A DNA stretch of 37,593 nucleotides from a virus. Both the position numbers and the translations under genes were made by a program. Position 1 is the stretch's first letter. Each line of letters begins with the position of its first letter. Below, piece by piece: positions 6,228 to 32,908 of this stretch. The stretch is from the IMG/VR virus record IMGVR_UViG_3300043331_000585, positions 1 through 37,593 of that record; one strand, 5' to 3'. Under the pieces are notes generated by a model that made no database searches, was not told the origin of the DNA, and saw nothing but the letters and a program-made list of their open reading frames with translations.

Positions 6228-6242
6228 AAACCGCACTAAATC
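6214..6242 (+). promoter_or_regulatory. Rightward promoter for repressor and integrase
   Basis: A perfect TTGACA -35 (6214-6219) is followed after 17 bases by TAAATC (6237-6242), matching TATAAT at four of six positions. It points at the repressor gene, whose ATG is at 6295 with GAGGAGG at 6277-6283. The second inverted repeat spans the -35, so autoregulation is plausible. Confidence 0.7.
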
Positions 6243-6294
6243 CTCCGATTACTACGAAGCGTCGAGGGCGACAACCGAGGAGGTCGGCAGGGCG

Positions 6295-6612: not shown

Positions 6613-6619
6613 ATGAGAT

Positions 6620-6640
6620 ACGGGCCAATGGTCCCGTTTT
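6620..6640 (+). terminator. Weak hairpin between repressor and integrase
   Basis: ACGGG (6620-6624) and CCCGT (6633-6637) can pair across an 8-base loop and are followed by a short T run (to 6640). The stem is only 5 base pairs, so this would be an attenuator at best. It could lower integrase expression relative to repressor. Confidence 0.3.
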
Positions 6641-6643
6641 CTG

Positions 6644-14891: not shown

Positions 14892-15641
14892 TTATCTCGG
14901 GATCCAGAGCCAAACGAAGTCGACGTCGAGAGCGACAGCATCAGCGCCGCCCGAGTCCTGCCAATGGGCCAGCGAGAACTCGACTTCCTCGTCGTCGTCA
15001 ATGTTGCAAGGGACCGTTGCCAGGTGAACCATCACCGGGCGGCCATTGGCTCCCACCAAGCCGCCGTAGAAGGCCACCGACTTCGGACCGCCCTGGGCGT
15101 TCTGCTCCGACGAGCACTCCACGCGGAATTCGTAGAAGCTGTCGATCGCCATTGTCGTCCCCGAGGTCAGGCCGGCCTTGACGCCGGCTGGCCCCGAAAC
15201 CAAGGCCGCCTCGTCGCCGTGATCGGCGGAGTCGACTTGGCAAGACAGCACCCCGGCATCGGAGTCGACCCACACTCCCACCGTGGGAGAGGTGGCCGTC
15301 ACCGAGTCTTGGAGTCCGACTCGGAAGTTGCCCGAGGCGAGCTCCGTGGGGTAACGGATCTTGGCGCCGAACTTGGTACCCGGCCGAACGATCAGACCGT
15401 CCTCGTCCAAGCGGATCACTCCGCCGTCACCGTTGGCGGTGGCCGCGGTGGTAAGCCGCAGCACGCCATAGGCACCGAGACCCTGTTGGGCCAAGTACGA
15501 GGGGGTCGAGGCATTGCCGATCGTGACCAGCTCCCACCTCAATTCGCTGATGGTCGCATCGGCGACCGCATCGTTTGAGGCGAAGTCGTCTTTGAGCAGC
15601 AATCCCGAGGGGGGAAGCCAGAAATCAATTGGACTCGTCAT
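14892..15641 (-). CDS. Concanavalin/LamG-like beta-sandwich virion protein, 249 aa
   Basis: ATG 15639-15641 follows AAAGGAG. The product is nearly all beta: LKDDFASNDAVADATISE at the start, GVLRLTTAATANGDGG in the middle, then alternating strands (FYEFRVECSSE, KSVAFYGG) and the end VALDVDFVWLWIPR. The order of strands and the aromatic last strand are typical of phage concanavalin-like jelly rolls that decorate capsids or form fibres. It directly follows the major capsid gene, so a head decoration protein is the first guess. Family assignment by fold only. Confidence 0.65.
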   Translation of the reverse strand: MTSPIDFWLPPSGLLLKDDFASNDAVADATISELRWELVTIGNASTPSYLAQQGLGAYGVLRLTTAATANGDGGVIRLDEDGLIVRPGTKFGAKIRYPTELASGNFRVGLQDSVTATSPTVGVWVDSDAGVLSCQVDSADHGDEAALVSGPAGVKAGLTSGTTMAIDSFYEFRVECSSEQNAQGGPKSVAFYGGLVGANGRPVMVHLATVPCNIDDDEEVEFSLAHWQDSGGADAVALDVDFVWLWIPR

Positions 15642-15660: not shown

Positions 15661-16533
15661 TCAGGCGTCCGTTATGACCGCGACTCCGGTGGCGTCCTCG
15701 ATCTCGCCGACCGCGTAGCAAGCGGTGACAACCGACTCCGTTCCACGGAGAGAGGCGTCACGCTCGAACTCGGGGCGGATGGCCCACTTCATCACGAGGG
15801 CGATCGTCCGGTCCCTAACCGCAATGAACCCGGCTCGGTCCGCTCCGCCGTTGGCGGTGGGGATGAGGGGGTTGATCGCCGTCATCACCCCGTAGAGGTT
15901 GAGCGCCTGCCCACCTCCGGGGTACATGCGGTTGATCTGCTCGGGGACCGTCTGACCCGGCGCCAACTGGCCCGAAAAGACCGTGGTGCCAATGTCATTG
16001 ATCAGGTCGTAGTACTGCCTTTCGTGGAGAATCGAGAACAGATCCTCCGGCGACTTCTGACCGATCAAGCCGACGATGCCGTCCTGCCATTGCGCTTCCG
16101 TCAGGTTGTTGCCTGTCGAGCCGATCACGGTCGAGAAACCGGAACCGAGCGCGCAAAGGTCGGTGGTCAACTTCTCGAGGACCGCCTTGCCTCCCTCGCC
16201 GGCCAGGATCGAATCGCCGAGCACAGAGCCCGAACGTCCGAGGTCGGTGAGGGTGAACTTCAAGCCGACTTCTGACACCGCGAAGGTGGCGATGTCGGGC
16301 TGGAAGGCCGTGTTCGAGGTCAGGTCCGTCCCGTCCGTCAGGCCGGCGGCCGTCAGAGCGGGGTAGAGGGGGAAACGTGCCGAGTCGGAAGGCTGGCTAC
16401 CAATGTCAACGGTGCGGGCGTACTGCCGCACATTGTCGTATGCGTACCTCGCCGACAGAATCTGATCGGTGAGGAGCATGTAGTCGTAGCCGAGCCGTCC
16501 CTCGACCATTGCAAACGTGACTTCATTCGCCAC
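15661..16533 (-). CDS. Major capsid protein, HK97-fold candidate
   Basis: A 290-aa shell protein. The start is GTG at 16531-16533, set by the strongest ribosome-binding site in the window (AAAGGAGG at 16540-16547, 6 bases away), as expected for the most abundant virion protein. The N-terminal arm and helix (LLTDQILSARYAYDNV) lead to VDIGSQPSDSARFPLYPALT. The middle resembles the spine helix and peripheral domain of HK97-type capsids, with GGKAVLEKLTTDLCALGSGF. The C-terminal part has strands ending ERDASLRGTESVVTACYAVG, as in many coat proteins. It follows a scaffold-type gene. No capsid-maturation protease was found. Confidence 0.85.
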   Translation of the reverse strand: MANEVTFAMVEGRLGYDYMLLTDQILSARYAYDNVRQYARTVDIGSQPSDSARFPLYPALTAAGLTDGTDLTSNTAFQPDIATFAVSEVGLKFTLTDLGRSGSVLGDSILAGEGGKAVLEKLTTDLCALGSGFSTVIGSTGNNLTEAQWQDGIVGLIGQKSPEDLFSILHERQYYDLINDIGTTVFSGQLAPGQTVPEQINRMYPGGGQALNLYGVMTAINPLIPTANGGADRAGFIAVRDRTIALVMKWAIRPEFERDASLRGTESVVTACYAVGEIEDATGVAVITDA

Positions 16534-16545: not shown

Positions 16546-17085
16546 TTATCGAGGGGCGTAAGGGTTGCCCGGCTGGCTTTCGTAGCGACCTTCCTTGATC
16601 GCCTGCTCGATAAAGGCCCGGTCCCCACGCTTCAAAGCCTCCTTGATCTCAGGTGAGTCAATGGTCAGCTTCGGAGGGGTGGGGGTTGCTCCCGTGTTAG
16701 AGGGAGAGGGCGCTGCTCGGGCGGCTCCTGGCGGTGGCGCTATCGGCGCTGCCGGGTCGGGAGCATCAGTGTCACTCGACTCGACTGGAGCGGCGGGCGG
16801 AGCTCCGAATAGAGACTTCTGCTCCTCCACCCAAGCATCGAGCCTGGCGGGGAGCTCCTCATCCTTGACCTCGGCAAACAGCGAATCGCGGGAGATGGTC
16901 CGGGCGGCGCCATAGGCGTCGGGAACCTTTCCTTTGAGGTGGCTGTATGCCTTGTCGACGAGAAGCATGGAGCGGGCATCCTTTTCGAGAGCGTCGATCC
17001 GGGCCTTGTATTGGTCCCGTTCGCCCTTCACTTGGTCGAAAGCCGTCTTGGTGACGGTTTCCTGAGGCTCGCTAGTCGTCGTCAT
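16546..17085 (-). CDS. Scaffold protein, 179 aa
   Basis: Composition and position mark it as a capsid assembly scaffold: an N-terminal charged coiled coil (about 13-45, FDQVKGERDQYKARIDALEK), a helical middle, a long Pro/Ala/Ser linker (about 93-140) and a basic C-terminal helix (EIKEALKRGDRAFIEQAIK) that would contact the coat protein. It lies immediately upstream of the major capsid gene. Its stop codon overlaps the capsid ribosome-binding site, linking their expression. ATG 17083-17085 has AAGGGAA upstream. The protein should assemble inside the procapsid and then leave it. Confidence 0.82.
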   Translation of the reverse strand: MTTTSEPQETVTKTAFDQVKGERDQYKARIDALEKDARSMLLVDKAYSHLKGKVPDAYGAARTISRDSLFAEVKDEELPARLDAWVEEQKSLFGAPPAAPVESSDTDAPDPAAPIAPPPGAARAAPSPSNTGATPTPPKLTIDSPEIKEALKRGDRAFIEQAIKEGRYESQPGNPYAPR

Positions 17086-17205: not shown

Positions 17206-19014
17206 TCAGAGGCCGCGGAGCCCGGCCAAGCGGAGTCGACCTCGAGCGTCTTGGAACCCGGTGAAGGCGTCGAATCCGCCGGCGGCGGCCTGGCGCTCTC
17301 GGAGGATCCGGTTCATGATCTCGAGGTTCTCGGCCGCGGTGCGCCCGGTGGGATCGGGGCGATTGGCGGCGGTCGCCACAACCGATTCCTCAGTCAGCCC
17401 GTAGCGAGATAGGTCAATATCCCTCGAGAAGCGGAGGACGTTGCCGGCCGCGGTCTGAGCGAACTCGTTGGCCGAGTCGGAGGTGATTAACCCCCCGGTG
17501 TCATCCCGAAGCTGGCGGATAAAGCCGAGATCGAGGTTCCTGAGTCCGGCCTCCTCGAGCGCATTGACCATCATGGCGTCGTTGAGCAAATCGAAAAGCT
17601 GCATGGGGTCGTTCCCGGCGAGGAGCTTGGTGAGATCGACCTGGGACATGACTTCGGCCGCTTGAGCCGCTGGCATTTGGTTGGCGGCGATGAGGGCGAT
17701 CGCTCCCACGTTCCCGATCGGCGCCATGCCGCCGGCTTGGAGGAGGCGGTTGAGATCCTCGATCACCCCCGGCTCGCCTCGCAAGGTGGCCTCGGCCGAC
17801 ACGATCGGGGCGATGGTCTCGGGGAGCCAGCCACGCCGAATCAACTCGCCGAGGTACTGCGGGCTGGTGTCGGCTCGCGGTCCTCGAGCGTCGAGAAGTA
17901 CCTCTCGGAACTGATCCTCGAGCTGGCTGTAGGTCGCCATCGCCGCCAGCTCGTCGCCGCCGGATCGCTCGAGCACTACGTCCCAAGCGACAAATCGGCC
18001 CCTGAAACCCTGGGTTTGGCTCTGCATCCTGATCACCCGGCCCGGAGACCACCCCTCGAGGGCGCCCTGGGCGGCGATGAACATGGCTTGGCGGTCGTTG
18101 CGGAGCCAGTCGGGAAGCGCCTCGAGGCCGAAGGACCGCATCTGGGCGTAAATCTGTGAGCCAAGCGACTCGGTGGAGCCCAAGATCTCGTCGACCGTTC
18201 CGAGCTCGAGGCCGCCGATGGCGTCGAACTCGGCCAAGGTGACATTGCGAGTGCTGGCGAAATGCTCGGTCGGGTTGGGAAAGAGGGTGCCCATATCGGC
18301 CTCGGTGCCGATCCGGTAATAGAACTCGATCCCCTCCCAGGTATAGGAAACGTAATAGTTCCTGGTCCCATCGGGGTTGGTGACCGTGTAGAGGGTGCCT
18401 CCGCTCGGGATGACCGCTCCTGGCTGGCCGAGCCCGTAAGAGCCAGCGCCAGCGGCGCCACCGCCACCCATCCCCGGCCACTGATAACCCGGAGTCTGCG
18501 CCTGCACCGAGATCCGGCTGGCTCGAGCGGCGATGTTGAAAGCGGCATCGGGCGGGATCCCGTTCGGATAGGCCGTCCGCATGTTCTGAATGTCTTGTGG
18601 GGTGAGACCGGCGCGGACGTCGGGGCCGAGAGTGGCGAGCCAGTTGTCGACCGTGATTCCGCCGCCGAAATAAGCCTGACCAAAGCTCCCCTGGACATTG
18701 GGAGCCAGCATCCCCGGAACCCCATAAGGATCCTGGTTCTGGTAATCGAGGAAATGCCCGGCGCCGAACTGCGTTTCGGCTGTTCCCTGCATCGCCGAGA
18801 AGGTCTGACCCGCTTGGGGGTTGGTGACCGTCGACTGCACCGGAGCGAAATACTGCACCGAGGCCACCGTTCGTTGACCGCTGTTGACCTCATTGGTGAT
18901 CCGCTGAATATCGGCTTCCGATTTGGTGGAGCCGAACATGGCTCGGACCTGATCAGCGGTAATGGTGTCCGAGAAGGTGCCGGCGGTCTGGCCGTATTGG
19001 GTGTCGATCGCCAT
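17206..19014 (-). CDS. Putative internal virion / ejection protein, 602 aa
   Basis: ATG 19012-19014 shares bases with the preceding stop (TAATG). The N-terminal 200 residues are rich in Gln, Thr and Gly (QYGQTAGTFSDTITADQV, then a glycine-rich GMGGGGAAGAGSYG stretch). The C-terminal 300 residues are helical with repeated segments such as LRNDRQAMFIAAQGALEG and PQYLGELIRRGWLPETIAP. No signal peptide or enzyme motif is seen. Together with the 358-aa and 2003-aa products it fills the space between portal and scaffold. In short-tailed phages internal core or ejection proteins form such a set, although the order here differs from T7. No named family. Confidence 0.6.
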   Translation of the reverse strand: MAIDTQYGQTAGTFSDTITADQVRAMFGSTKSEADIQRITNEVNSGQRTVASVQYFAPVQSTVTNPQAGQTFSAMQGTAETQFGAGHFLDYQNQDPYGVPGMLAPNVQGSFGQAYFGGGITVDNWLATLGPDVRAGLTPQDIQNMRTAYPNGIPPDAAFNIAARASRISVQAQTPGYQWPGMGGGGAAGAGSYGLGQPGAVIPSGGTLYTVTNPDGTRNYYVSYTWEGIEFYYRIGTEADMGTLFPNPTEHFASTRNVTLAEFDAIGGLELGTVDEILGSTESLGSQIYAQMRSFGLEALPDWLRNDRQAMFIAAQGALEGWSPGRVIRMQSQTQGFRGRFVAWDVVLERSGGDELAAMATYSQLEDQFREVLLDARGPRADTSPQYLGELIRRGWLPETIAPIVSAEATLRGEPGVIEDLNRLLQAGGMAPIGNVGAIALIAANQMPAAQAAEVMSQVDLTKLLAGNDPMQLFDLLNDAMMVNALEEAGLRNLDLGFIRQLRDDTGGLITSDSANEFAQTAAGNVLRFSRDIDLSRYGLTEESVVATAANRPDPTGRTAAENLEIMNRILRERQAAAGGFDAFTGFQDARGRLRLAGLRGL

Positions 19015-20090
19015 TACGTCCCCCGGATCCCGAGCCCGGCGATCATCGCTGCAAACTTCTGGCTGAACTCGCCTTGGTTCTGAGCCTGGTAGTAGGCGCC
19101 ACGGCGGATCCGCTCCTCAAAGCCGGCTTGTCCCGCCCCATGCTTGGCACCCGAAATGGCGAGCTCCTCCTCCATCCGCGGGGGAAGGCCAAGCTGGCGG
19201 ACGGTGCCGAGGTACTGCCCGATGTATTGGCCGGCCGACATATGGGCGGGTTTCTTTCCGTAGATCAGTTGGTAACGGGCGGTCCCCTCGATCTTGTCTC
19301 GCACGAAAGTCTCGAAGTCGAGCCGGCCACCTTGGAGCAAAAAGTCGTTGGCTCGAGCCTCGTATTCGGCCGCCAAGCCGGCGGCGTCGGGCGGATCCTC
19401 AAAGAGCAAGGACCGCCACAAATCCTCGATCGAGTTGACGGCCTGTGCCTCGTCAAGCACCACCTGGGGCGGCTCGGCCCTGCCGCCACCGCCGCCGCCT
19501 CCCCCACCCCCTGAGCCCAGGTCGAAAATGCCACTTGAGAAACCCTCGAGGATCTGCCCGATCTCGCGCTCGGAGTAGATCGGGGCGCCGGCCAGCGCGC
19601 CTCCGGGCATCCCACCGGGTCGTATCTGCTGCAACCCTTGCTTCGGGCTGTTGGTGTAGTAGATCGTGCCGCTGGCAGAACGCACACCGAAAACGCTCGG
19701 GAGGGCGTATAGGCCCTGCCCAAACCATGAGAGGGTCTGACCGACCTCGGGCGAGTTGACCACCTGGACAAAGGTGGGAAATGCCCCGGTCCGAGCCCGC
19801 CAATCGTCAGCGATCTGATTCGCCATATCGGAGGCGATCGAGCTCGAGAAGCCAAGATCGCGGAGCCACTGCACTGTGAGTTGGTGCTGGAAGGCGCCGG
19901 ACTGAGTACCCGACCAGCGAGATACGCCGCTCTCGTCGACTTGGATCGTGCTGCCCCCTGCGATTGGCGGAGCACTCGAACTACCGCTAGTCCTAGTGGT
20001 GGTGGGTCTAGTGGTCCGCGGAATCGTGGTCTCCGGTGGCTCCCACTTCGGAGGGTTCATCTCGGTCGGAGTGTTGCCCCTACTCGTCAC
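19014..20090 (-). CDS. Putative internal virion protein with polyglycine linker, 358 aa
   Basis: GTG 20088-20090 overlaps the stop of the 2003-aa gene (GTGA). The first 50 residues are disordered (PPETTIPRTTRPTTTRTSGS). A domain of about 130 residues follows (HQLTVQWLRDLGFSSSIASD, then FPTFVQVVNSPEVGQTLSWF). A run of ten Gly (about 196-205) separates it from a helical C-terminal half with YEARANDFLLQGG and GRLDFETFVRDKIEG. The hinge-like glycine run suggests two modules that move independently, as might suit a protein that must unfold through the portal. The role is inferred from position. Confidence 0.6.
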   Translation of the reverse strand: MTSRGNTPTEMNPPKWEPPETTIPRTTRPTTTRTSGSSSAPPIAGGSTIQVDESGVSRWSGTQSGAFQHQLTVQWLRDLGFSSSIASDMANQIADDWRARTGAFPTFVQVVNSPEVGQTLSWFGQGLYALPSVFGVRSASGTIYYTNSPKQGLQQIRPGGMPGGALAGAPIYSEREIGQILEGFSSGIFDLGSGGGGGGGGGGRAEPPQVVLDEAQAVNSIEDLWRSLLFEDPPDAAGLAAEYEARANDFLLQGGRLDFETFVRDKIEGTARYQLIYGKKPAHMSAGQYIGQYLGTVRQLGLPPRMEEELAISGAKHGAGQAGFEERIRRGAYYQAQNQGEFSQKFAAMIAGLGIRGT

Positions 20091-23000
20091 GGCCCACCTC
20101 TCCGCTCACGCTCGGCCGCCAAGAGGGCGGCGAGATCCTGCACCGTTCCACCGACGTCGGCTCCGGTGGGGTTGGTGGCAGTGAACACGGACGGGTTATA
20201 GAGGGGAACCCCATCGACATAAAGCCATGCAAACACGCGGAAGGTATCGGGCTCGGTTTCTTGGACAAGGGGGAAGGTCTCCGGCTCGAAGATCCCCAAG
20301 GTGATCTCCCTGGCATCGGCAATCACTCGGGCGAGCTCGTCGAAGGCTTCGGCATAGCCGGCTTGTCCCTGCTCGGGAGCGTTAAGTCCGATCACCCGGA
20401 CCCGGACCTCACCCTCTCCCGCTGTCACCACTCGCAGCGTGTCGCCGTCCTCGACCGAGACCAACCGGGGATCCGCAGCGAAGGATGCTGTGAGATCCTC
20501 GAGTGCCGGCGGAGCTGGCGGCTCGTAGTCAAGGGGACCGAAGGCCGCCCGGAGGTAGCGGTCGTAATCGGTGCGGAGATCGGGGTCGGTGGCGACTACC
20601 CGCCCGAGCTCGGTGCGGGCCCACTCCTTGAAGTTCTCAGGCCAGTCGTAAATCGAGGTGATGCCGGCGGTTTGCTCGAGATCATCGCTGGCCTGCTCGA
20701 AGTACCCGACCAGCGTGTCGTATTCGGGTTGGCGGCGGATCTTGAGCCAGAAGGGACTCGCCGAGACCGAGATATCGCGGGAGACCCATTGCTCGAACTG
20801 TGTTCGGAGGATCTCTCGGAACTCCAAGCCGGTGAGCTGGCGGGGAAGCTCGATACCGATGGCGGAGAACTCCTCGAGCGCCACATCGTCAAAGGTGATC
20901 CGCGCTCCCTCTAACGCCTTGGTCATCCCGTCGCCGTACTCCCGGCCGGTGATCTCGAGCCACATCTGGCGGGCTCGGTTCCGCTTGGCGTCGTTGCGAA
21001 TGAAGATCGCATCGGCCGCCACCTCGGACTCGGGGCGAGCCTCGAACCATCCCTCCTCGAAGCCTCGCCGGCGGATCTCGGCGCCACGCTGGCCCTGCAA
21101 GGCGGGATTGCTGGTATCTATCCGTCCGTCCGGGGTGCAATATTCGGCGGGTCCGACCGGGCGGCCGGTGTCGTCGAGCCGACACTGCGCGGTCCCGACC
21201 ATGTTGGCGGCGAGCTCGGGGTTACGAGCGATCAGCCAATCCCTCCACGCGTCGGGAAGGTCGAAAAGGGTGGTGGCAGCCTGGTCGGTGAAAAGCTCTC
21301 GTTCTTTGTCGGTGGCGGTCCCGGCCTCGATCTTCTCCCACCAGTCGCGAAGGGCATCGGCTTGCGGATCCCCGATTACCCCGCTCTCTTGGAGAAGCGT
21401 CAGAGCGGCGACCAGGCCCTCATAGAGCGGGACGACATTGGAGTCGGGAGTGATCTGCCTACGAAACCCGACATAACGGCGCCACGCGCTTGCGTACTCG
21501 GCACCATTCGCCTCGGCCATCGCCCCGTCGACGAGCTGGCTCAGGCGCCGGTCGAACTCGGCACCCTCGGCAACCAAGGTGGGGTTGTCGGCGAGGAGCT
21601 GACCGAGCCGATACTTGAAGGCGTCGGTGTAGCCATAAGGTCGACGTGCCCAATCGAATACTCCCTTGGCCTCGTCGGAGCTAAAGAACTTCTCGATCGC
21701 AGCGGCGCCGGGCAAGTCGGCAGAGGAGTAGCCACGGGCCGCCCATCCCATGACCCCGGTGAGCGAGCGGTTGGTGGTGGGGAGGAAGTAGCGAAAGAAC
21801 GTTTCCGGGGTGAGCGCGGCCTGGCCCTCGATCCACTCGAGGGTGGGAAAGAGCTCGGTGAGCTTCTCGCGGACCGGGTGTTCGGGTGGCATGTAATGAA
21901 TCGCCATCGTCGACCAAGGGCCGAGACCGGGAATGAAATTGGTCAGGAAATTGTCCGGGTCGTCAAGAGCCACCGGCAAGAAGGTCCAGGTCTCGAGGAG
22001 GTTGACCGGGTGCAAGGGTCCGGTCTCTGAGTCCCGTCGCTCGCTCTCGGCGATGAGGTGGAGCCAACGAGCCGCGATCCGAGCATTGACGCCGGGAACA
22101 TGTATCGAGCCATCGGCGAGTCGCTGAATCCCTCGACCGACCGCGGTGCCGCTCCCGCCGGCGATACGGGAAAGGCCGGTGGCGATGCCCCGCAGTGGCC
22201 CTTGCAAGGCGAGGTCGGTCCCCGCCATCAACTGCCGTGACCACCAGCGGAGGAAGTCATATTGGGCGGGGAAGAACGGTGCCAATTGGGCGAGCTTGCG
22301 ACCGAGAAGCGAGGAGGCACCCCCCAGGTAGAGAAGCGATCGAGCATGGCGCTCGGCCCACTTGGCGGCGGTCTGCTCGAGGTAGCCGCGGGTAACGAGG
22401 CCCATCTGTCGGAGCTGCTCGTCGAGCCGGCGGTCCCGCACCGAGATCATGAACTCCGCCTCCTGACGCGAGGAGGCCACGCCGGATTGCACGATCTCAT
22501 CGAGTTTGTCATCGACGATTCGCCCGGCCCACCGAGCCTCGAGGGTGGCGAGCGATTGCTCGTAGAAGTGCTCGTAAAACACTCCGCCGCGGGCTCGGGC
22601 CGGAGCCCCATAAAGAACATCGAAGCCCCTCGAGAAGCCCCTCGGTATGTCCTCGACCTGAGCGGGGACCGCCGGCGCCATGCGGATGATTGGCGGCGGG
22701 AGGGTGCGCTTGCCGGTGGCGAGAGCGTCGAGCACCGCCCGGCGAAACTCCGCCGGCTTCTTGGCGGCATCGAAGAACAACCCAAACCCATTCTCCAGGG
22801 TGAGGTAGGCGCCTTCACCGTCGAGCATCCGTACCTGGCCGGCGCCGGCCAGGGGAACCGCAGGAGCGTTACGACCGCGGGCCCCGACCGTTTCCCACCA
22901 TTCGGTGAAGATCCGGGGATCCTCCTCGAGCACCGCCCGGGCGTAGTAGCGGAACGCATCGTCGTTGAGCACCGACCCCTCGAGCCACCGTTGCGCGGCT

Positions 23001-26000
23001 TGGAAATGGCCTTGAGCTCCGTTCTCGACCATTTCCCAACTACCCCGCCGGCGCTCGAATCCCTCGAGGGTCTGTCGAACCCACTGAGCGGCGTGGGTGT
23101 TCTGTTGGTCAGGGATGAGATTGCGAAGGCCGGGGATCCGGCGAGCGACGGCGGGAGCCGGGGAGACCAGCGATCTCGTGGCTCGGCCAAGCGCTCCGGT
23201 GGCGGTCCCAAACTTCACCACGTCCTCGAGGTGGGCCTTGGCGGCGTTGAGCGGGTTGTAAAGCAATCCCACCGCCCATAGTCGGTTGGCTCCGCGCATG
23301 AGATTGGGGATGATGTCGCGGGTCGCCCGCGAGATCGCTTCCGCCGCTTGCCGGGCGTAGCCGGCTCGCTTGGCTGAGGCGTAGAGCGCCAGCTCGTAGG
23401 GGGAGACCGGGAGCCAGTGCTGCGACCCCGACTCGAGCACGCCGAGTCGTTTCATGTCCTCGGCAAACTCACCAAACGGCTCCACTCGAGCCGCCTCGGG
23501 TCGGTTGGCGCCCCGGCCGGTGAAGGCCCGGACCTCCGACCAGAGCCGACGGCCGTTAGTCCCTACCGGGATCTCGAGCTCGTCGGCCCATTGCTCCATG
23601 AACTCGTCGACGAGACTTGCCAGATCGGCCCGGCTGTGAGGGCGAGTGGCCTCGTAGTTGGCCCGACGAAGCAACTGACGCTGGCGCAGGTTCGCCGCTC
23701 TTTGAGCGATCGCCTCGTCGTATTGCGGTCCCAGATCGGCTAGTCGCTCCTCGAGGGCGGCGATCGACTCCCGCAGGCTTTGAGCGTTCCGCTCCCAATC
23801 GAAGGCTTGGGCGGCTACTTGCTCGGGAGCGAGCTCGGCAGCCTCGTCGCCTATCCGAACCGCCTGCTCGAACTGCTCGGGGCTGGCGGCAAGCCGGGCC
23901 TCCACCTCGAGGAGCTCGCGACGAGTGCGCTCAAGGGATTGTCGGATCAGCGGGACGGATTTGACCTGGCGACTCATCCCTCGCCGAATGGCGATCGACT
24001 GTTGGCGGAGCGAGTCGGAGAGGGCGATCCGCTCGGCGGCCAGGTTGGTCCCCCCGCTGGTGTAGTCGTTGAAGGTGCGATAGGCCCGCTCGAGCCAAAG
24101 CTTTGCGAGCTCGGTGTCATCGGGGTTGGGGTAGCGAGCAACGATCAGCTCGGTCATGTCGTCCAAGAACTCGGATTCGCCAAGGCCGATGGTTCGTCCG
24201 GTGGGCTGGCGCCGCAAGAGCTCGACCACGGCGTCGCGGATTGGGTCGTCGCCCATGTGTTGGCCGAGCTCGCCGAGCCCAAGAATCGACTGATGGTGCA
24301 TCGCCAGGGCGGGGCCGTTCATCATCCACGTCCCGTTGGTGATCTCGTCCTTGAGGACCGCTTGGATCACGTTGTCATCGGTGGCATTGAGCAAGGCGAG
24401 TCGAGCTCGACCCGACATGCCTTGAAGGAACGGTGCGAGCTTGATGGCGTCGTTCGTCGAGCCAATGGCCTGACGAAGCACTCGACCCCTGGAAGAACGG
24501 AGAAACGCCTCGGCGCCGACACTGCCGGTCGCCATGTAGCGAGTGAAAAGGCGGGCACCGTGTTTGCCTCCGCCGGTGACCCAATTGGTCGGGTCGAAAA
24601 GCATGGCTGCACCAAGGTTGATCCACCCCGCCGCGGCCGAGCCCGGCTCCGCCCATCCATACCACTCGGCGATCCCGCCCTCTTTTGCGGCCTCGAACGA
24701 GCGCCGAGCGACTTCCCAACCATCCTCGGCCAGAGCCTCGATCGGTCCCTTGAGCTCGGTCCGGTCCTCGACCAAGTTGGGCAGGATCGAGTGGAGCTCG
24801 TCGATCACCTCAATCCCGATCGAGTACGCCACCGCGTCAAAGACCTCGGCGGCTTCGATGATCTTCTCGAGCACCTCGCCGGTAGTGGACTCGATGGTTG
24901 CTTGCTGCTGCTCGAGCTCTCGGAATTCCTCGATCAATTCCTCGGCGGTCAGCGAGTGAATGTCCTGTAGAAGTCGATCCTGTTGGCTCGGATCAAGACT
25001 GGCAAAGATCTCGCGGGCCATGCCGATCGCCGGATAGAGCGACTCGGCTTGGCCCATCTGCACCAGCCGTTGCCCGATGAGCGAGACCGCCAGATCGGGG
25101 GTGGTCCGGGCGGCGGCCTGAGCTTCGACTGCCGCTCGCTCCTCACGGTCGACCTGGCGAGCGTCCCATTGGCGGCCAAGGAAGGTACCGATGCCCACGG
25201 CGGTCCCCATCACCGCGGCGCGTGAGCCGATGTTGACCGCTCGAGGGAAAAGCTCAGAAGCGATCGCCCACCGCTCCTTTTCCGCCGGCGAGATCTCTCG
25301 AGCTCGGTTGAAGTAGGCGAACCAGCCCTCTTGCTTGGCGGCTCGACTCCGCCGATCGAGCTCGACGCCACGCTGGCGAGCGGACTCGTCGGCGGCGAGC
25401 TCCTCCATCATCGAGTAAGCCTCTTGCCAGAGATCCTCGATGGCGGTCCCCGGTCGGTGGGTCCATGAGGCTCCGGTCTGTGCCATTGCCTCGGTGAAGT
25501 CCTCGCTTATAAGTGCTTTCAGGTCGGGATCGTCGCGACTCCACTCGTACATTCGGTGAGCAACCACCCTTGCCATGTCGTTTGACATGGCGGGCATATA
25601 GGCGAGCCCCAGGGCGGTGAGCTCGGTAATGGCGTTCTCCCGCATCGGATCCCAATCGGTGAAACGGTCCGGCACAACGATCGGGTCAGGTGAATCAAAT
25701 CGAGGGACAGCGATTTCGCCGGAACCTAGATTCCTACGTCGATTCTCGGCCCGGCCCTCTGCACCCGCGTAGGGTGCTCCTGCACCAATGCTGGTTCCAT
25801 AGATGAGCCGAGCCGCGTCGAGCTCTGCACCTCGCATCGTGGTTCGGTTTTTGCGTCGGTTCTCAGCTCGCCCCTGAGCTCCCGAGTACCGCCTCGCATC
25901 GACCAATTGACGGGAGCGGACGGCCCTGCGTGTGCGATCGTCGATCACTCGCTGCGCCTGGTTGAACTGCTCGCGCGCCTGCACTCGTGATCGGGTTTGC

Positions 26001-26098
26001 GCCAGCACCTCGCCCTCGAGAGTGATTTCGCCTCCCGGTCCCTCTGGCCCGGCGTTCAGGTCGCGAAGCCGCTGGCCGCGAACGTCGCGGGTGGTCAT
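20087..26098 (-). CDS. Giant internal virion (ejection-type) protein with C-terminal SNase-like domain, 2003 aa
   Basis: The largest gene in the window. ATG 26096-26098 overlaps the upstream stop (ATGA). The basic N-terminus (1-130) carries a 14-residue direct repeat (71-85 and 110-124, around GRAENRRRN). Long helical regions follow, including a coiled coil near 720-830 (RTRRELLEVEARLAASPEQF, ESIAALEERLADLG) and hydrophobic stretches such as LAQLAPFFPAQYDFLRWW. The last 125 residues (from about 1878) match the staphylococcal nuclease fold: VEDGDTLRV with D1884 and D1886, VRVIGLNAPE with E1909, and FRVFAWLY with R1954. The Asp at the SNase D40 position is Asn here. Position between portal and scaffold, size and lack of tape-measure features point to a DNA-ejection protein. 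No lytic transglycosylase motif was seen. Confidence 0.75.
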   Translation of the reverse strand: MTTRDVRGQRLRDLNAGPEGPGGEITLEGEVLAQTRSRVQAREQFNQAQRVIDDRTRRAVRSRQLVDARRYSGAQGRAENRRKNRTTMRGAELDAARLIYGTSIGAGAPYAGAEGRAENRRRNLGSGEIAVPRFDSPDPIVVPDRFTDWDPMRENAITELTALGLAYMPAMSNDMARVVAHRMYEWSRDDPDLKALISEDFTEAMAQTGASWTHRPGTAIEDLWQEAYSMMEELAADESARQRGVELDRRSRAAKQEGWFAYFNRAREISPAEKERWAIASELFPRAVNIGSRAAVMGTAVGIGTFLGRQWDARQVDREERAAVEAQAAARTTPDLAVSLIGQRLVQMGQAESLYPAIGMAREIFASLDPSQQDRLLQDIHSLTAEELIEEFRELEQQQATIESTTGEVLEKIIEAAEVFDAVAYSIGIEVIDELHSILPNLVEDRTELKGPIEALAEDGWEVARRSFEAAKEGGIAEWYGWAEPGSAAAGWINLGAAMLFDPTNWVTGGGKHGARLFTRYMATGSVGAEAFLRSSRGRVLRQAIGSTNDAIKLAPFLQGMSGRARLALLNATDDNVIQAVLKDEITNGTWMMNGPALAMHHQSILGLGELGQHMGDDPIRDAVVELLRRQPTGRTIGLGESEFLDDMTELIVARYPNPDDTELAKLWLERAYRTFNDYTSGGTNLAAERIALSDSLRQQSIAIRRGMSRQVKSVPLIRQSLERTRRELLEVEARLAASPEQFEQAVRIGDEAAELAPEQVAAQAFDWERNAQSLRESIAALEERLADLGPQYDEAIAQRAANLRQRQLLRRANYEATRPHSRADLASLVDEFMEQWADELEIPVGTNGRRLWSEVRAFTGRGANRPEAARVEPFGEFAEDMKRLGVLESGSQHWLPVSPYELALYASAKRAGYARQAAEAISRATRDIIPNLMRGANRLWAVGLLYNPLNAAKAHLEDVVKFGTATGALGRATRSLVSPAPAVARRIPGLRNLIPDQQNTHAAQWVRQTLEGFERRRGSWEMVENGAQGHFQAAQRWLEGSVLNDDAFRYYARAVLEEDPRIFTEWWETVGARGRNAPAVPLAGAGQVRMLDGEGAYLTLENGFGLFFDAAKKPAEFRRAVLDALATGKRTLPPPIIRMAPAVPAQVEDIPRGFSRGFDVLYGAPARARGGVFYEHFYEQSLATLEARWAGRIVDDKLDEIVQSGVASSRQEAEFMISVRDRRLDEQLRQMGLVTRGYLEQTAAKWAERHARSLLYLGGASSLLGRKLAQLAPFFPAQYDFLRWWSRQLMAGTDLALQGPLRGIATGLSRIAGGSGTAVGRGIQRLADGSIHVPGVNARIAARWLHLIAESERRDSETGPLHPVNLLETWTFLPVALDDPDNFLTNFIPGLGPWSTMAIHYMPPEHPVREKLTELFPTLEWIEGQAALTPETFFRYFLPTTNRSLTGVMGWAARGYSSADLPGAAAIEKFFSSDEAKGVFDWARRPYGYTDAFKYRLGQLLADNPTLVAEGAEFDRRLSQLVDGAMAEANGAEYASAWRRYVGFRRQITPDSNVVPLYEGLVAALTLLQESGVIGDPQADALRDWWEKIEAGTATDKERELFTDQAATTLFDLPDAWRDWLIARNPELAANMVGTAQCRLDDTGRPVGPAEYCTPDGRIDTSNPALQGQRGAEIRRRGFEEGWFEARPESEVAADAIFIRNDAKRNRARQMWLEITGREYGDGMTKALEGARITFDDVALEEFSAIGIELPRQLTGLEFREILRTQFEQWVSRDISVSASPFWLKIRRQPEYDTLVGYFEQASDDLEQTAGITSIYDWPENFKEWARTELGRVVATDPDLRTDYDRYLRAAFGPLDYEPPAPPALEDLTASFAADPRLVSVEDGDTLRVVTAGEGEVRVRVIGLNAPEQGQAGYAEAFDELARVIADAREITLGIFEPETFPLVQETEPDTFRVFAWLYVDGVPLYNPSVFTATNPTGADVGGTVQDLAALLAAERERRGGP

Positions 26099-26421
26099 TG
26101 TGACCGTTCGGCTACTCGGATGGCAGCGAGTCGGAGAAGGGGATTGGTGGTGCGAGCGGCGATCGCCTGCAACCGCTCTTGGGGAGTGGGAATCTGCGTC
26201 AGAGGTGAGAGCGGTTCCATTACCGCGAGCGGGTCGTCGGTCATCGCCGGTTGCGCGATCTGTCGCGCAGGGGTGGGGGTTGGAGCCGGAGGCGGAAGCA
26301 CCGGGCGATTCGGCTCTGGGGGAGTGGTGCTAACGCCAGCCTGACGGTAGGTATCGGCGGTCCGCTGGCGCTCGCCATAGTCCCGTTTGACCGGGAGAAG
26401 GTCACTCGCCATCGTCACCAT
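26095..26421 (-). CDS. Small proline-rich protein, 108 aa
   Basis: Starts at ATG 26421 (or 26412), overlapping the end of the 82-aa gene. The N-terminus VKRDYGERQRTADTYRQAG is charged. The middle is proline-rich (PPEPNRPVLPPPAPTPTPA). The C-terminus is a helix (ERLQAIAARTTNPLLRLAAI). It sits between the portal and the giant ejection-type protein and is coupled to the latter by ATGA. Proline-rich linkers with a helical end are common in small head proteins, but no function can be named. Confidence 0.6.
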   Translation of the reverse strand: MVTMASDLLPVKRDYGERQRTADTYRQAGVSTTPPEPNRPVLPPPAPTPTPARQIAQPAMTDDPLAVMEPLSPLTQIPTPQERLQAIAARTTNPLLRLAAIRVAERSQ

Positions 26422-26719: not shown

Positions 26720-28561
26720 TCACTGGTTGAGAGCTCGGTTGGCGGGCATCAACTGGCGGAGTCGGCCGCCGAGCCGGCTCAATCCGCCTTCGGTCCCGGC
26801 TCCGCCGGCCTCGAGTGAAGCCACCTGGCGGAGCGGGTCGATCTCGTTGCCGCCGCCGGCGGTCGGGCCTTCGGTGGGGACCGGCGCCTGCGTTTCGCGG
26901 ATCACCTCCATGACGGCTTGGCGCGCGGTCATGGTGTCTCCGTCGACCTTCTCAGCCAACATCTGCAAGGGGGCGAGATTGCCGGCGGCCGCTTGCTGCA
27001 AGAAGAATTGGATCCCGCCTTGGACCGCGTTCTCCAAGAGCATGTCCCGCTCCTCCTGCAAGGGATCGTCGACCAAGCCGGCTTCGGTCATAAAGGTCCG
27101 TTGCGAAATGGCATTCATCGACCTCGAGAGAGCCAGCATCGACAAGAGGTTGTGAACGTCGAGCCCGGCCGCCGAGCCGTAGGTGACCACGTTGCGGTAG
27201 TCGCCTTTGAACAGGACCGCCGGGTCATAGGTCTCGATCCATGCCGCCTTGCCCTCGTGGCCTTCGATGGTCTTGCGGCCGGCGCAATGCACCTCGTCGT
27301 ATTGGGCGGTGAGAACGTTCCCCCAGGAGATCAAGTGGGCAATGTCGATGTGGGCCAGCCGGAGCTCGGCGTCGTAGCCGCCCTCGAGCTTGTCTTGGCC
27401 GCGGCCGGTCGTCCACCCACCGGAGCGTGAGCCGGACCGTGACTCGGGAAACTTCCCTTGTCGGCGTGCCATTTCGAGCTGGTCTTTGACCGCTTGGATC
27501 GCCTCGAAATTCATCGGCTTGCGCGGGTAAATGACGTTGGGGTCGCCCTGGCCGTCACCGCGGAGGTGGGCATTGGGGCCGTAGTCCTCTTCGTTCTCAA
27601 TGTTCTGGAAAACCACCGGCCCGAAGATCGAGTCGCTCATGTCCTCGAGGTAGCGGGCCATGATGTTTTGAGCCACCTTGAGCCGGGGAATCACCGAGTC
27701 GACCGGGGCTCGGTACTCGCCGTCGTTGGTCTTGCGCTTGGCTTCGGCCACCGGGCACCAGTCGAGACCGTGGGGCATCGGCTCCACCAACCACTCGTCG
27801 ATCGAGGTCTTGGGAGCGGCCACCGGGGCGACGTAGCGCCAAGTGTCATATTGGGGGCGGATCGGGCGCAGCGAGAGCGACACGGCGATGGTGGTCTCGT
27901 CGTAATACCAAGTCTCCTCGACCTGGCGCATCCCATCCTCCTTGCCGTGGCTGAGGCGGTGCCGGTACTCGAGGTTGAGGATGCCGGGGTGAGTCGCCCC
28001 GTACTCGTTCTTCACATCGGTCAGCTTGCGGAGCCGGGTGAAGATCACCGAAGTCAGCCGGCCGGTGTTGTTATGGGAGAGGGGATAGACCTGGCGGGGG
28101 TCGACCCGGACCATGTAGGGGAAGCGAGCCGCCGGCGGCCGCACGTTCCCATCGGCGTAATAGGCGTCGCAATGGGGGGTGAGATAGGCGGCGGCGTGGC
28201 CGAACCAGTCGAGGAATAGCTGGACCCGGTTCACCTCCATCATCGAGCGGTCCTCGTAGCTCTTGAAAACCCGCCGGCGCTGTGCCGCCACCCGCTCGGC
28301 CCGATCGGAACGAGTCCCTCGAGTGGGCCAGACAAAGATCTTGGGGGCGACGGAGGCGGCCTCGGCGGTCTTGTCCTCGAGCATTTGCAGGACCGTGTTC
28401 TCGACCAAGGGCTCGCCGATCTCTGCGGTGAGATCATCCCAAATCGTCTGCCACTGGTCGGCGGCGATGGCGTCGAGGGTCAGTGATCGCCGTTTCCACG
28501 ACTGGTGTTGGCGGATCGCTTCCTCCCGCAAGCCCGTCAATTCGGTTATGTCAGTCAGCAT
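26720..28561 (-). CDS. Portal protein, 613 aa
   Basis: The head vertex ring through which DNA enters and leaves. The helical N-terminus (ITELTGLREEAIRQHQSWKR) leads into a beta-rich region with the wing (RFPYMVRVDPRQVYPLSH) and the stem/clip region. The C-terminal barrel-forming helices include GNVLTAQYDEVHCAGRKTIE and, later, QGGIQFFLQQAAAGNLAPLQ. The protein lies directly after the large terminase gene, the usual terminase-portal order. ATG 28559-28561 overlaps the terminase stop by 11 bases. Length is at the upper end for portals. The C-terminus is rich in Ala and Gly. Confidence 0.85.
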   Translation of the reverse strand: MLTDITELTGLREEAIRQHQSWKRRSLTLDAIAADQWQTIWDDLTAEIGEPLVENTVLQMLEDKTAEAASVAPKIFVWPTRGTRSDRAERVAAQRRRVFKSYEDRSMMEVNRVQLFLDWFGHAAAYLTPHCDAYYADGNVRPPAARFPYMVRVDPRQVYPLSHNNTGRLTSVIFTRLRKLTDVKNEYGATHPGILNLEYRHRLSHGKEDGMRQVEETWYYDETTIAVSLSLRPIRPQYDTWRYVAPVAAPKTSIDEWLVEPMPHGLDWCPVAEAKRKTNDGEYRAPVDSVIPRLKVAQNIMARYLEDMSDSIFGPVVFQNIENEEDYGPNAHLRGDGQGDPNVIYPRKPMNFEAIQAVKDQLEMARRQGKFPESRSGSRSGGWTTGRGQDKLEGGYDAELRLAHIDIAHLISWGNVLTAQYDEVHCAGRKTIEGHEGKAAWIETYDPAVLFKGDYRNVVTYGSAAGLDVHNLLSMLALSRSMNAISQRTFMTEAGLVDDPLQEERDMLLENAVQGGIQFFLQQAAAGNLAPLQMLAEKVDGDTMTARQAVMEVIRETQAPVPTEGPTAGGGNEIDPLRQVASLEAGGAGTEGGLSRLGGRLRQLMPANRALNQ

Positions 28562-30614
28562 CGGAGCTCCCGATGACCAGTTGGGCGAGATCGACGTTGG
28601 CGTACACGTCGGCCCGAACGTTACCGCGCCGACCCTTCTTCTCCTGACCGTAACGCTTTTGCTGCCAGCGACGGGTGACGTTGGCCGGAACCTTCTGCTC
28701 CATGCCCCGACCCTTGCGCTCGAACCGCTTGAACAGGGCTCGAGCCTCGAGAACCCCCATCCATATCGCCATTGCCAGGTCGTCGGGGTGGGCGGTCCGC
28801 ATGTTCTTTGACCTGATCTTCTTGGGGGCGGAGTCCCAATTCTTGAAGTGCTGGCGAATGGTGTAGGTCTTGGTCTGATCGGGCGTGGTGGCGGTCGGGA
28901 ACAGAAGCCGGCGGTCCCGCATTTCCGAGGCCACCGAGGCCACCCCGATCTCCCGGTCCATCCGGTTCTTGTGGGTTTGGTGCCGCACCACCGTCACCCC
29001 GAAGTCCGAGATCGCCTTCTGTGTCTCGGAGTCCTCGAGCACGCCCTGCTCGTGGTTCACCTCATAGACCAGATAGGTCGGTTGCCAGACGGTGAGGGGG
29101 TTGATGATGAGCCGCTGCTTGATCCCCACCACTCCGAGCCCGGAGAAGATCTTGTAATCCAAGACGGCGATGGTCTGCTCCTCGAGATTGACACCGAGCA
29201 TCACCCATGCCGCTCCGCCAGCTCGGGCCGGATCCACCGAGAGAATCCGCACCTCTTTGGGCAGAGACTTCCCATAGCTCCGGCGGGGATCGGAGCAAAG
29301 GTCGAGAATGGCATCGGTGAAGTCGAATTGAGCGGCGTCGGCGGAGGGGTTCTGTTGATAGGCGGTCTCGAACCAATCGGGATCTCGCTCTCGGATTTCC
29401 CGCAGGCCGAGCACCCGCTTGCAACTAGCGGCGGCCGCCTCGTCGATCGACATTGAGGAGAGCTCCACTCGCTCGCCGGTCGGAAGCTGCCACTTCCCGT
29501 CGAGGGGGAACCGAGCCTCGTCATAGCTCCGTTCGTCGCCGTCCTCGTCGACCCAAATCGCTTGGCAGATGATGACGCAAACACCGTTGGTGTAGACCGT
29601 CTTGGTCAGCGGCCCGACCTGCTCGGTGTCCCAAATCTCGGCACCGCCGATGTAGTGCTCCATGAGGCGCTCGTGGTTGTCATCGGCACCGACTCGAGTG
29701 CCGAGATCGACCAAGCGCCCCATCGCGTCGAGCCGGGAGTCGGCAGTCCCGACGCACCATTGAAAGTCGGATTCCTTCTCGAGCTGGCTCCGCTGGTTCT
29801 CTTTGGTCACCAAGTCGGAGAACACCATCAGCCCGACTCGAGAGCCGTAGAGGGCGCCGCCCATCCCCGTTGCCCACAAGTCGGGCTCGGCTTCGGGAGC
29901 GGCCGCCGATTGCAAGAAGCGGAGCTCGTGCTGAGTCCAGGTGGTCTTGGCGACCGGGGTGCCATCGGGGTATTCCATGCCGGGCTCGGCCTTGAAAGGG
30001 CCGTAATCCTCTATCAGCGAGCCGGTGGGCTTGGCCCCGCCGGGGGTCTGATAGGGCTTGACCCGATAGACCTGGGGATCGGTCAGGTAGGGCTCGAGCC
30101 GTTGCGCGATCCGGCGCACCGAGAAGTTGTCGTTCTCCATGATCCACGCGCATCGGAGGTAGGAACGGTCGTCGCACTTGAGGTAGAGCAAGACGTCACC
30201 GACCGTGGTGTCCTTGCCGCCGCCGGGCGGAGCGAGGATGAAAGTGACCCGGTTGGTCTGGTTGAGGAGGCCATCGGCGATCGCTTGGCCGAGGAGCGTC
30301 GTCGGCCGGCCGAGATACTTCATCCGCCACTCGGCGAACTCGGCCTTGGGTGGCACCGGGCGATTGGGGTCATAGACGCTGTGCTTGCGCGCCGAGACCC
30401 GGCCCTTCAAGTGGGTAATCGCCTTGATTGCATTGTCGAACTCCACATCGTTGAGCCGGAGTCGCTGCATCACCGAATAGGAGACCTCGAACTTTCGATA
30501 GACCTCGCGCAAGGTGTGGCCGGCGTCGAGGTACCTGAGCATTTGCTTCTTCTTGGCGTCAAGAGTCGGGCCGTGAGCTCCTGTGCGATTGGCGGTGGAG
30601 TTGATACGGGTCAT
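28551..30614 (-). CDS. terL: Terminase large subunit with N-terminal HTH, 687 aa
   Basis: The DNA-packaging motor. Residues 21-55 (MLRYLDAGHTLREVYRKFEV, then SYSVMQRLRLND) look like a helix-turn-helix. The ATPase follows with Walker A APPGGGKDTT at 128-137 and a Walker B candidate VFSD (264-267). The RNase-H-like nuclease has D461 in ILSVDPARAGG, E518 in LVYEVNHEQG and D611/D612 in HPDDLAMA. ATG 30612-30614 overlaps the stop of the 547-aa gene (ATGA); longer in-frame starts lie inside that gene. No separate small terminase gene was found, so the N-terminal HTH may do part of its job. That is inference. Confidence 0.93.
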   Translation of the reverse strand: MTRINSTANRTGAHGPTLDAKKKQMLRYLDAGHTLREVYRKFEVSYSVMQRLRLNDVEFDNAIKAITHLKGRVSARKHSVYDPNRPVPPKAEFAEWRMKYLGRPTTLLGQAIADGLLNQTNRVTFILAPPGGGKDTTVGDVLLYLKCDDRSYLRCAWIMENDNFSVRRIAQRLEPYLTDPQVYRVKPYQTPGGAKPTGSLIEDYGPFKAEPGMEYPDGTPVAKTTWTQHELRFLQSAAAPEAEPDLWATGMGGALYGSRVGLMVFSDLVTKENQRSQLEKESDFQWCVGTADSRLDAMGRLVDLGTRVGADDNHERLMEHYIGGAEIWDTEQVGPLTKTVYTNGVCVIICQAIWVDEDGDERSYDEARFPLDGKWQLPTGERVELSSMSIDEAAAASCKRVLGLREIRERDPDWFETAYQQNPSADAAQFDFTDAILDLCSDPRRSYGKSLPKEVRILSVDPARAGGAAWVMLGVNLEEQTIAVLDYKIFSGLGVVGIKQRLIINPLTVWQPTYLVYEVNHEQGVLEDSETQKAISDFGVTVVRHQTHKNRMDREIGVASVASEMRDRRLLFPTATTPDQTKTYTIRQHFKNWDSAPKKIRSKNMRTAHPDDLAMAIWMGVLEARALFKRFERKGRGMEQKVPANVTRRWQQKRYGQEKKGRRGNVRADVYANVDLAQLVIGSSDAD

Positions 30615-32254
30615 GTCAGATCCACTCCGCCGGGCGCTCGATAGCCGGCGTTCTGTAGGCGCTGATCGGCGGCGGCCACCAGCGTTGCTTGTGAGGAGCC
30701 GGAGTGTGCCGCCCATACCGCACTCATCAGGGCCATCACTTCATCGTGGGTGCCCTGCTCCATGACAAAGACCGAGGAGGCGTTCTCCCAGGTCTCGGTT
30801 TTCTTGAAGCCGGAAGGTTGCCCATTGCCGAGCGGGACGAGCGAGAGCCTCGGGACGGAGGGGTAGCGCTTGAAGATGGCCGGAAGCCGCTTGATAATGA
30901 TCAAGGCGCCTGTCGTCGCAGAGGCGACGGCCTGCGCCTCATCGGTCTCGGTGGCCTGATCAATCGCCTCCCTTAACCTGACGAGAGTCGCAGTGTCGAT
31001 CTCCGTCGCCTGACCAATCGCCACCGTGACGATGACGGGTTGGGCGGTGTCGGTCTCGACAACCTGCTCGATTCCGGCCAGGGTGGTGACCATGATCGGC
31101 GGTCCCCAATCGGTGACCAGCTTGGCGAATATCTGGTGAGCCGTATCGGTCTCGGAAGCGAGGCCAATCGCATACGTCAATAGCGCCGAGAGGGCTCGAG
31201 CGAGATCGGTTTCGGAGGCAAGGCCGATCTGCTCGACCTTCGCTGTGCCGAGAGCCTGCGCGAGATCGGTTTCAGCCGATTGGCCGATAACGGTGGTAAA
31301 GGTGGCGGTTACGGCCTGCGCGAGATCGGTCTCGAGCGATTGGCCGATCGCAACCCTGACCCCGAAGCGGAAAGTTACGGCCTGCGCGAGATCGGTTTCG
31401 GCGGCAGTCGCGATCGCGTAGAGCTTCCGAGCGGTGATGGCGCGAGCGGTGTCGGTCTCGGAGGCTTGGGCTACCTGCTCGGTTTTCTTCCAGGTAATCG
31501 CCTGGGCGAGATCGGTTTCGGAGGCAAGGCCGATGGCTTGACTGATGGCAGGGGCGGCGGGCCGAATAACAACGGTGTGGGCGGCGTGGCGGTCACCACC
31601 TGTCTTGGTAAAGGTGCCGGGGTTGTCAGTGGCCGCCGCCAGTCCGCGGGTGGCGATCCCGTAGGAAACGGTGTCGCCTTCTGACCCAGTGGAGTTCTGA
31701 CCGGCGTATTGGTTCGATGAGTAGTTGGTGGGGTAGCCGCTGGCTAGGCCACGGCGGGCCTCGCAGCCATAGAGGGCGATGAAGAGGTTGTCTTCCGCCC
31801 CCCACGAGGCGGTCTCGCTTGGGGGGTCGGGCAAATCATTGGCGGCGATCGACGCCGCCGTCACCTCGGCCGCTTGAGTGGCGTGGGAGCCGGAGATGAG
31901 GAAGAGGCGGTTTACCGAGCATTCCGAAGCTGAGGAGGTGAACTGAAAACTCGACTCAGAGCCAGTGCAGTCGAGCTTTTCCCAGAGCTCGGTGGTGAAG
32001 TTGGCGTGGGTCGTCCTGATCAGTTGATTCCAACCCGTCGGGAAGTTCGACAAGGTGGGCGCCGCGTCGATAACCACCAGAAGGAAGGCGCGATCTCCCG
32101 CGGCCACTCCGGTCATATCGACATCGTGGCTAGTGGTGGCAGAATCCTCAACCGATTCGGTGGTGGCGTGAACGTCAGGGAATCCTTCGAGAAGAAGAAC
32201 CCCCGAGCCGTCCTCGAGAAGAAGATCGTCGCCGCTCTCTAGCAGCAGCGTCAT
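30611..32254 (-). CDS. Tail fibre-like protein with ten ETDxAQ repeats, 547 aa
   Basis: Residues 25-232 are a beta-rich domain that is also present at the N-terminus of the 744-aa protein. Shared landmarks are GWNQ, ISGSH, WGAEDNL and YGIATR. Residues 241-446 hold ten imperfect 20-residue units with the core [IV]xQAxETDxAQAV (IGLASETDLAQAITW, IGQSAETDLAQALG, IDQATETDEAQAVA). The last 100 residues (IIIKRLPAIFKRYPSVPRLS...) are different and may be a tip or attachment domain. ATG 32252-32254 directly precedes the end of the 213-aa gene's stop. A receptor-binding or fibre role fits its repeat architecture and neighbours. Confidence 0.7.
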   Translation of the reverse strand: MTLLLESGDDLLLEDGSGVLLLEGFPDVHATTESVEDSATTSHDVDMTGVAAGDRAFLLVVIDAAPTLSNFPTGWNQLIRTTHANFTTELWEKLDCTGSESSFQFTSSASECSVNRLFLISGSHATQAAEVTAASIAANDLPDPPSETASWGAEDNLFIALYGCEARRGLASGYPTNYSSNQYAGQNSTGSEGDTVSYGIATRGLAAATDNPGTFTKTGGDRHAAHTVVIRPAAPAISQAIGLASETDLAQAITWKKTEQVAQASETDTARAITARKLYAIATAAETDLAQAVTFRFGVRVAIGQSLETDLAQAVTATFTTVIGQSAETDLAQALGTAKVEQIGLASETDLARALSALLTYAIGLASETDTAHQIFAKLVTDWGPPIMVTTLAGIEQVVETDTAQPVIVTVAIGQATEIDTATLVRLREAIDQATETDEAQAVASATTGALIIIKRLPAIFKRYPSVPRLSLVPLGNGQPSGFKKTETWENASSVFVMEQGTHDEVMALMSAVWAAHSGSSQATLVAAADQRLQNAGYRAPGGVDLT

Positions 32255-32896: not shown

Positions 32897-32908
32897 CTTT
32901 GCTCCTTA

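Follow-up and report, generated by a model that had tools for sequence, protein, structure and literature searches.

P0001, a 2003-residue protein encoded beside the portal gene in the 37,593-base IMG/VR record analyzed here (the window), is best read as an internal protein that a short-tailed actinophage ejects from its virion, carrying a probably active staphylococcal-nuclease (SNase)-type domain as a cargo acquired once. We assign this reading as a whole a probability of roughly 0.6. What sequence comparison establishes is homology, synteny, a fusion whose catalytic residues are kept in three diverged phages, and cargo swapping in relatives.

A giant gene beside the portal gene

The P0001 frame comprises 2003 codons without an internal stop. 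The gene is real and lies on the minus strand, with the coordinates and size given in the first-pass annotation. Its start and stop overlap the neighboring genes by 4 bp (ATGA with the upstream 108-aa gene, GTGA with the downstream 358-aa gene), and P0001 is therefore one translationally coupled gene; judged from the sequence, the overlap pattern is that of a tightly coupled late operon. On the minus strand, the gene order is terminase, portal, 108 aa, giant, 358 aa, 602 aa, 179 aa, and 290 aa. The first-pass annotation had nothing but the giant in the interval from portal to scaffold, which needs correction, as the 108-aa gene precedes it and the 358-aa and 602-aa genes come after. Features of this region are listed below, with L161 and L200 denoting two sister phages.

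28551..30716, minus strand: terminase large subunit, 721 aa (phrog_38, E 1.9e-20; Streptomyces Beephvirinae terminases, E 4e-11)
26720..28561, minus strand: portal protein, 613 aa (SPP1_portal, E 0.005; Immanuel3 portal, E 2e-3; conserved in both sister phages)
26095..26421, minus strand: 108-aa gene between portal and giant (homolog L200:4020-4346)
20087..26098, minus strand: giant portal-adjacent protein P0001, 2003 aa (ATG at 26098, stop at 20087-20089; full-length homologs L161:3944-10420 and L200:4346-10471)
19014..20090, minus strand: 358-aa gene after the giant, conserved in both sister phages
17206..19014, minus strand: 602-aa gene, conserved in both sister phages
16546..17085, minus strand: 179-aa gene, scaffold-like by position (29% identity to L161; slot of Immanuel3 gp62)
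15661..16533, minus strand: probable major capsid protein by position, 290 aa (conserved in both sister phages; slot of the Immanuel3 major head protein)

The window also encodes an SU10-adaptor-like protein (E 0.004), and no tape measure gene was recognized in it. The window terminase is matched by that of Manuelvirus Abafar (Beephvirinae), a podovirus by TEM (PMC11536984). The window phage is probably short-tailed and a phage of actinobacteria, the host assignment coming from one MAG bin. Given a podovirus relative, an adaptor-like protein and no recognized tape measure, podovirus biology leads us to predict a giant internal ejection protein. Single-sequence IMG/VR searches with P0001 or its terminase found nothing, as did tblastn of P0001 against phage records, which places the lineage far from everything cultured.

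Outside this cluster, in the regions 6139-7471 (plus strand) and 708-3662 (minus strand), the window holds a tyrosine integrase gene (PF00589, E 1.1e-14) and an HTH gene, together with RecT, YqaJ exonuclease and RusA. The phage is therefore probably temperate. Two probable tail-fiber genes with a similar N-terminal region lie upstream of the terminase gene on the minus strand, one at 30611-32254 with degenerate ETDxAQ repeats and one at 32909-35143 with fn3 and beta-helix matches.

Two sister phages carry the same fusion

The same C-terminal SNase domain ends the 2158-aa giant of L161 (IMGVR_UViG_3300005253_001075), found via an SNase-alignment search, and the 2041-aa giant of L200 (QQVI01000008.1, a contig binned as Actinobacteria bacterium MA_ANB_1), found by genome scan. 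The match of the L161 giant to P0001 (E 2e-68) covers residues 372-1726 as well as the SNase region, and overall identity among the three giants is 25-28%. Both sister phages keep the gene order terminase-portal-giant-358-602-(179)-capsid, with identities to the window of 42-44% for the terminase, 38-40% for the portal, 45% in the capsid slot, 33% and 32% for the 358-aa and 602-aa genes, 32-37% for the adaptor, and 29-38% for a 612-aa protein. Between the window and L200, the SNase domain is the most conserved 100-residue stretch of the giant (52-59% identity vs. a median of 26%), and between the window and L161 its identity is 39% vs. 24%. Constraint on the domain is therefore stronger than on the greater part of the body.

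No second giant-bearing host genome was found among 198 relatives of the MAG, and scanning genomes with an alignment of the whole giants gave no giant either; known members of the SNase-fused lineage are three, all uncultured. The MAG that holds the L200 phage also has an SNase-containing ORF of its own (G002 contig C14:15064-15222, 376-aa open frame). A further difference in layout concerns a 249-aa protein, encoded once in the window, on the downstream side of the capsid gene (14892-15641), and in L161 as three adjacent paralogs between portal and giant (L161:1364-3560).

The C-terminus is a divergent SNase domain

P0001 contains one recognizable enzyme domain, joined to a virion-type body.

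20090..20485, minus strand: C-terminal SNase-like domain, residues 1872-2003 (PHROG_452, hhalign, viral-SNase HMM, AF2, PDB fold matches)
20486..20548, minus strand: Pro-rich linker, residues 1851-1871 (from sequence; directly after segment 1823-1849)

The SNase motifs, which span residues 1884-1960, had been read from the sequence in the first-pass annotation, and profile searches show that they are not a chance resemblance. In the PHROG search, PHROG_452 (endonuclease) matches residues 1881-1962 with E 1.5e-4, and hhalign of the domain from the three giants against 20 standalone viral SNases yields a probability of 97.8% with E 1.3e-12. Likewise, an HMM built from standalone viral SNases alone picks out the window giant at E 2.8e-7 from ~6,100 ORFs. 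The 114-aa domain, searched by tblastn against 50,697 phage records, matched 111 of them, 102 being from Staphylococcus phages; most of the matches listed fall on annotated nucleases, and the best is the standalone SNase MT839542 (E 3e-4).

AlphaFold2 (AF2) predicts an OB-fold barrel with SNase topology for the domain (pLDDT 81.1, pTM 0.76), from an input alignment of fetched relatives that included SNases; an earlier low-confidence model from two sequences (pLDDT 54) was superseded. A fold search with this model returned SNase in all 50 PDB matches listed (best E 1.1e-6, TM ~0.5), a family over-represented in the PDB, with no non-nuclease barrel among them. Pfam searches of P0001 or its domain gave no SNase match (the score stays below the PF00565 cut-off), NCBIfam scores for the domain were trivial and far below cut-off, and a PDB sequence search missed or barely saw it. 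A whole-giant profile run against 198 actinobacterial genomes matched 79 of them, and among the matches listed all but the source phage lie in the SNase part of the model.

By these sequence criteria, the last ~130 residues of P0001 are a divergent but genuine SNase domain. It resembles the SNase/thermonuclease family (PF00565, phrog_452), especially actinobacterial cellular members, in DGDT, R35, E43, R87, and the predicted OB fold, and shares Asn40 with the actinobacterial cellular clade. Unlike this family, it is fused to a giant, stays below the Pfam cut-off, has a long insertion before the R87 strand, and has remodeled C-terminal helices.

Asn40 is a feature of the clade

Active-site positions are numbered after S. 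aureus nuclease.

20438..20449, minus strand: DGDT, residues 1884-1887, equivalent to D19, D21, and T22 (invariant in three giants and 23 viral SNases)
20396..20398, minus strand: R1901, R35 equivalent (invariant)
20372..20383, minus strand: N1906-A-P-E1909, positions D40, T41, P42, and E43 (Asn for D40; E43 kept)
20237..20239, minus strand: R1954, R87 equivalent, start of strand RVFAWLYVDG (invariant in giants and the trimmed SNase alignment)

None of the three giants deviates at the equivalents of D19, D21 (D1886 in P0001), T22, R35, E43, and R87. Each of them has Asn at position 40, where the Asp of S. aureus nuclease is a Ca ligand, and the window giant has Ala at the T41 equivalent. Both substitutions would fit a catalytically dead domain, its OB fold retained as a binding module for DNA or for protein docking inside the capsid, as would the remodeled part past the R87 strand and the Asp40 of all 20 standalone viral SNases recovered by search. 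We consider such a loss of catalysis unlikely: D21, T22, R35, E43, and R87 stay unchanged across the three giants at a body identity of only ~25%, and Asn40 is common in relatives. It occurs, with the other residues kept, in 12 of the 14 cellular SNases examined in genomes of actinobacteria akin to the MAG, a set that leans towards the giants because it was gathered with their own profile, and in the majority of SNases that ct2KA10-like actinophages encode as separate genes. A tree built from 74 columns of 37 sequences groups the giants as one lineage (99/91) within the cellular clade of actinobacterial SNases (99/97), and the Asp40 viral SNases lie apart from this clade.

Asn40 is therefore a clade feature rather than decay, and D40 is not diagnostic of the SNase family. 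On this sequence evidence, the change is normal for the actinobacterial SNase clade, whose members may be active, and no sign of lost activity, which revises the earlier reading of it as a warning. Beyond the R87 strand, P0001 could not be aligned with standalone SNases; since this region differs from classical SNase, full activity cannot be assumed. A MAFFT alignment with full-length SNases placed the WLYVDG strand on the wrong SNase segment and was discarded; once the SNases were trimmed, R1954 fell opposite R87.

SNases depend on Ca and are often secreted, and a strictly Ca-dependent enzyme would be weak in the cytoplasm. These properties, and the derivation of the giants' domain from a cellular clade, leave some room for a nuclease acting outside or at the cell surface, where Ca is plentiful, on extracellular DNA or envelope nucleic acid and not on the chromosome. 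We regard this as more doubtful still than a dead domain, as the gene lacks a receptor-binding or depolymerase context and sits in the portal/capsid cluster, away from the tail-fiber genes at 30611-35143.

The body is distantly related to a family of portal-adjacent giants

Loci fetched by terminase and portal similarity contained 79 ORFs >1400 aa, 49 after reduction, and these 49 all fall in one similarity cluster. Two collinear segments connect P0001 to this family:

22190..22420, minus strand: family core, residues 1227-1303 (AQLAPFFPAQYDFLRWWSR; family HMM E 1.1e-4; hhalign E 2.1e-5 for P0001 alone)
22958..23056, minus strand: second collinear family segment, residues 1015-1047 (family HMM; weak alone, collinear with the core)

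The family HMM matches P0001 alone at residues 1015-1047 and 1227-1288, the E-value of 1.1e-4 applying to the latter, and hhalign of the three-giant profile against a 23-member family profile gives 93.5% and E 2.2e-7 over 168 columns. A ~1650-aa phrog_10618 protein of unknown function (gp9/gp10) is encoded next after the portal in Immanuel3 and Manuel, two Streptomyces phages of the Beephvirinae, and P0001, >1500 aa and directly downstream of the portal save small genes, fits such a family. The link is visible by profiles only: phrog_10618 does not match P0001 at E<1, and BLASTP of P0001 against Immanuel3 gp9 is insignificant. The PHROG search also returned a weak phrog_8809 match. Homology of the body rests on few collinear segments (E 1e-4 to 2e-7), by which P0001 belongs, distantly, to the giants of 1500-2200 residues beside the portal gene in Beephvirinae-type actinophages. 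The "virion-type" label first given to the body thus agrees with its placement, by sequence, in a giant portal-adjacent family of at least one podovirus, as expected for an internal or ejection protein. P0001 and the phrog_10618 giants share the portal-side slot, size, and a collinear conserved core; the latter, at ~1650 aa, lack the SNase, and peptidase and glycosylase genes adjoin them where the window has unrelated-looking 358-aa and 602-aa genes instead.

Related giants exchange cargo at a fixed site

Among the giants of ct2KA10-like phages, whose backbones are 79-100% identical, a single site (backbone residue ~821-828) varies: it is empty in 13 of 21 contigs and holds an ADP-ribosyltransferase (ART) or a ParB-like domain in four each.

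ART at the cargo site: L155:13261-19035, L140, L238, L240
ParB-like domain at the cargo site: L139, L154/L235, L234, L239
Empty cargo site: L128, L151, L002, and others

The best ART cargo matches ADPrib_exo_Tox at E 4.5e-15, with R, S-S-T, and E-x-E motifs visible, and the ParB-like cargo shows an EGNHRL motif, with a phrog_1033 match (E 0.0016) for one. L238 and L140 carry ART domains that look almost the same, yet the L238 backbone is only ~80% identical to the reference, which suggests that this cargo moved between giants by recombination. An independent ParB-like insert (EGNHRL) occupies residues 1063-1247 of the L036 giant (L036:11869-17265), compared with sisters of 40-67% identity.

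The terminal SNase of P0001, following the Pro-rich linker, fits as another such cargo on sequence grounds. Residues 1823-1849, just before the linker, weakly match the end of cargo-less giants in a C-terminal profile comparison (E 0.04), a resemblance to their C-terminal end that is suggestive only. The viral-SNase HMM found no fused SNase in the other giant-bearing loci searched; whereas the SNase is fused to the giant in the window lineage, it is a separate gene in ct2KA10-like phages. These encode a standalone, mostly Asn40 SNase of ~145-153 aa away from the virion genes (L002:24788-25222; L151 and L147:4014-4472, minus strand).

The position of the P0001 gene between portal and capsid genes might also point to a role of the domain in virion assembly or genome processing, such as trimming or packaging of phage DNA. 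Related giants, however, assemble without SNase or with ART or ParB-like cargo, so that members of the family can be built without SNase activity, and we judge this role highly improbable. With swappable enzymes in its relatives, the giant looks instead like a delivery vehicle for enzymes entering the cell with the phage DNA.

Discussion

In the ejection reading that we prefer, the ~1850-residue body would be a structural or ejection chassis, distantly homologous to the Beephvirinae-type portal-side giants, to which an SNase domain from the actinobacterial cellular clade was presumably joined once via the Pro-rich linker. The giant would be packaged in the virion and leave the capsid with or before the DNA, bringing the nuclease into the cell envelope or cytoplasm. 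There, the domain, most likely an active metal-dependent nuclease, may attack nucleic acid of the host or of a competitor as infection begins. The virion would have to shield its own DNA, possibly through metal dependence or tethering.

A broader proposal, to which we give somewhat less than even odds, is that actinophage podoviruses use the portal-adjacent giant as a general chassis for cargo. It would have at least two cargo sites (internal and C-terminal), at which recombination swaps SNase, ART and ParB-like enzymes that then enter the cell together with the DNA. A nuclease encoded separately in related phages would here be a pre-loaded, virion-borne weapon.

Known parallels exist. Polyvalent proteins (Iyer et al. 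2017), as described in the main text of that study, are large proteins encoded near late or virion genes and thought to be injected with DNA, with ART and ParB-like domains among those listed (PMC5512222). P0001 is likewise a very large phage protein with an enzyme domain, encoded among virion genes; polyvalent proteins are strings of domains, whereas P0001 has one that is recognizable as an enzyme. The sequence data are best read as an SNase-bearing variant of this theme. SNase has 0 occurrences in the main text of the polyvalent-protein paper (PMC5512222) and is absent from the main text of a jumbo-phage survey, and text searches of the open-access literature for SNase with ejection, internal, or polyvalent proteins returned nothing relevant. 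Across the loci, libraries and texts searched, no SNase-giant fusion appeared outside this lineage, in keeping with the initial remark that no standard phage ejection protein is known to have such a fusion. Phage T4 Alt, SPP1 gp7/MuF proteins, and N4 virion RNA polymerase are also head-carried enzymes delivered with DNA (in part covered in PMC5512222). They are different enzymes, for which no sequence relation to P0001 was found, and delivery has been demonstrated for some of them, whereas for P0001 it is proposed.

For the biology of actinophages, the large and mostly unannotated giant family (phrog_10618 and relatives, "unknown function") emerges as a set of probable enzyme carriers, with sequence evidence for cargo exchange at a fixed site. 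SNase joins the candidate virion-delivered enzymes, and an "inactivating" Asp-to-Asn change turns out to be the usual state in one clade of actinobacterial SNases. With Beephvirinae phages in culture, the ejection idea can be tested at once.
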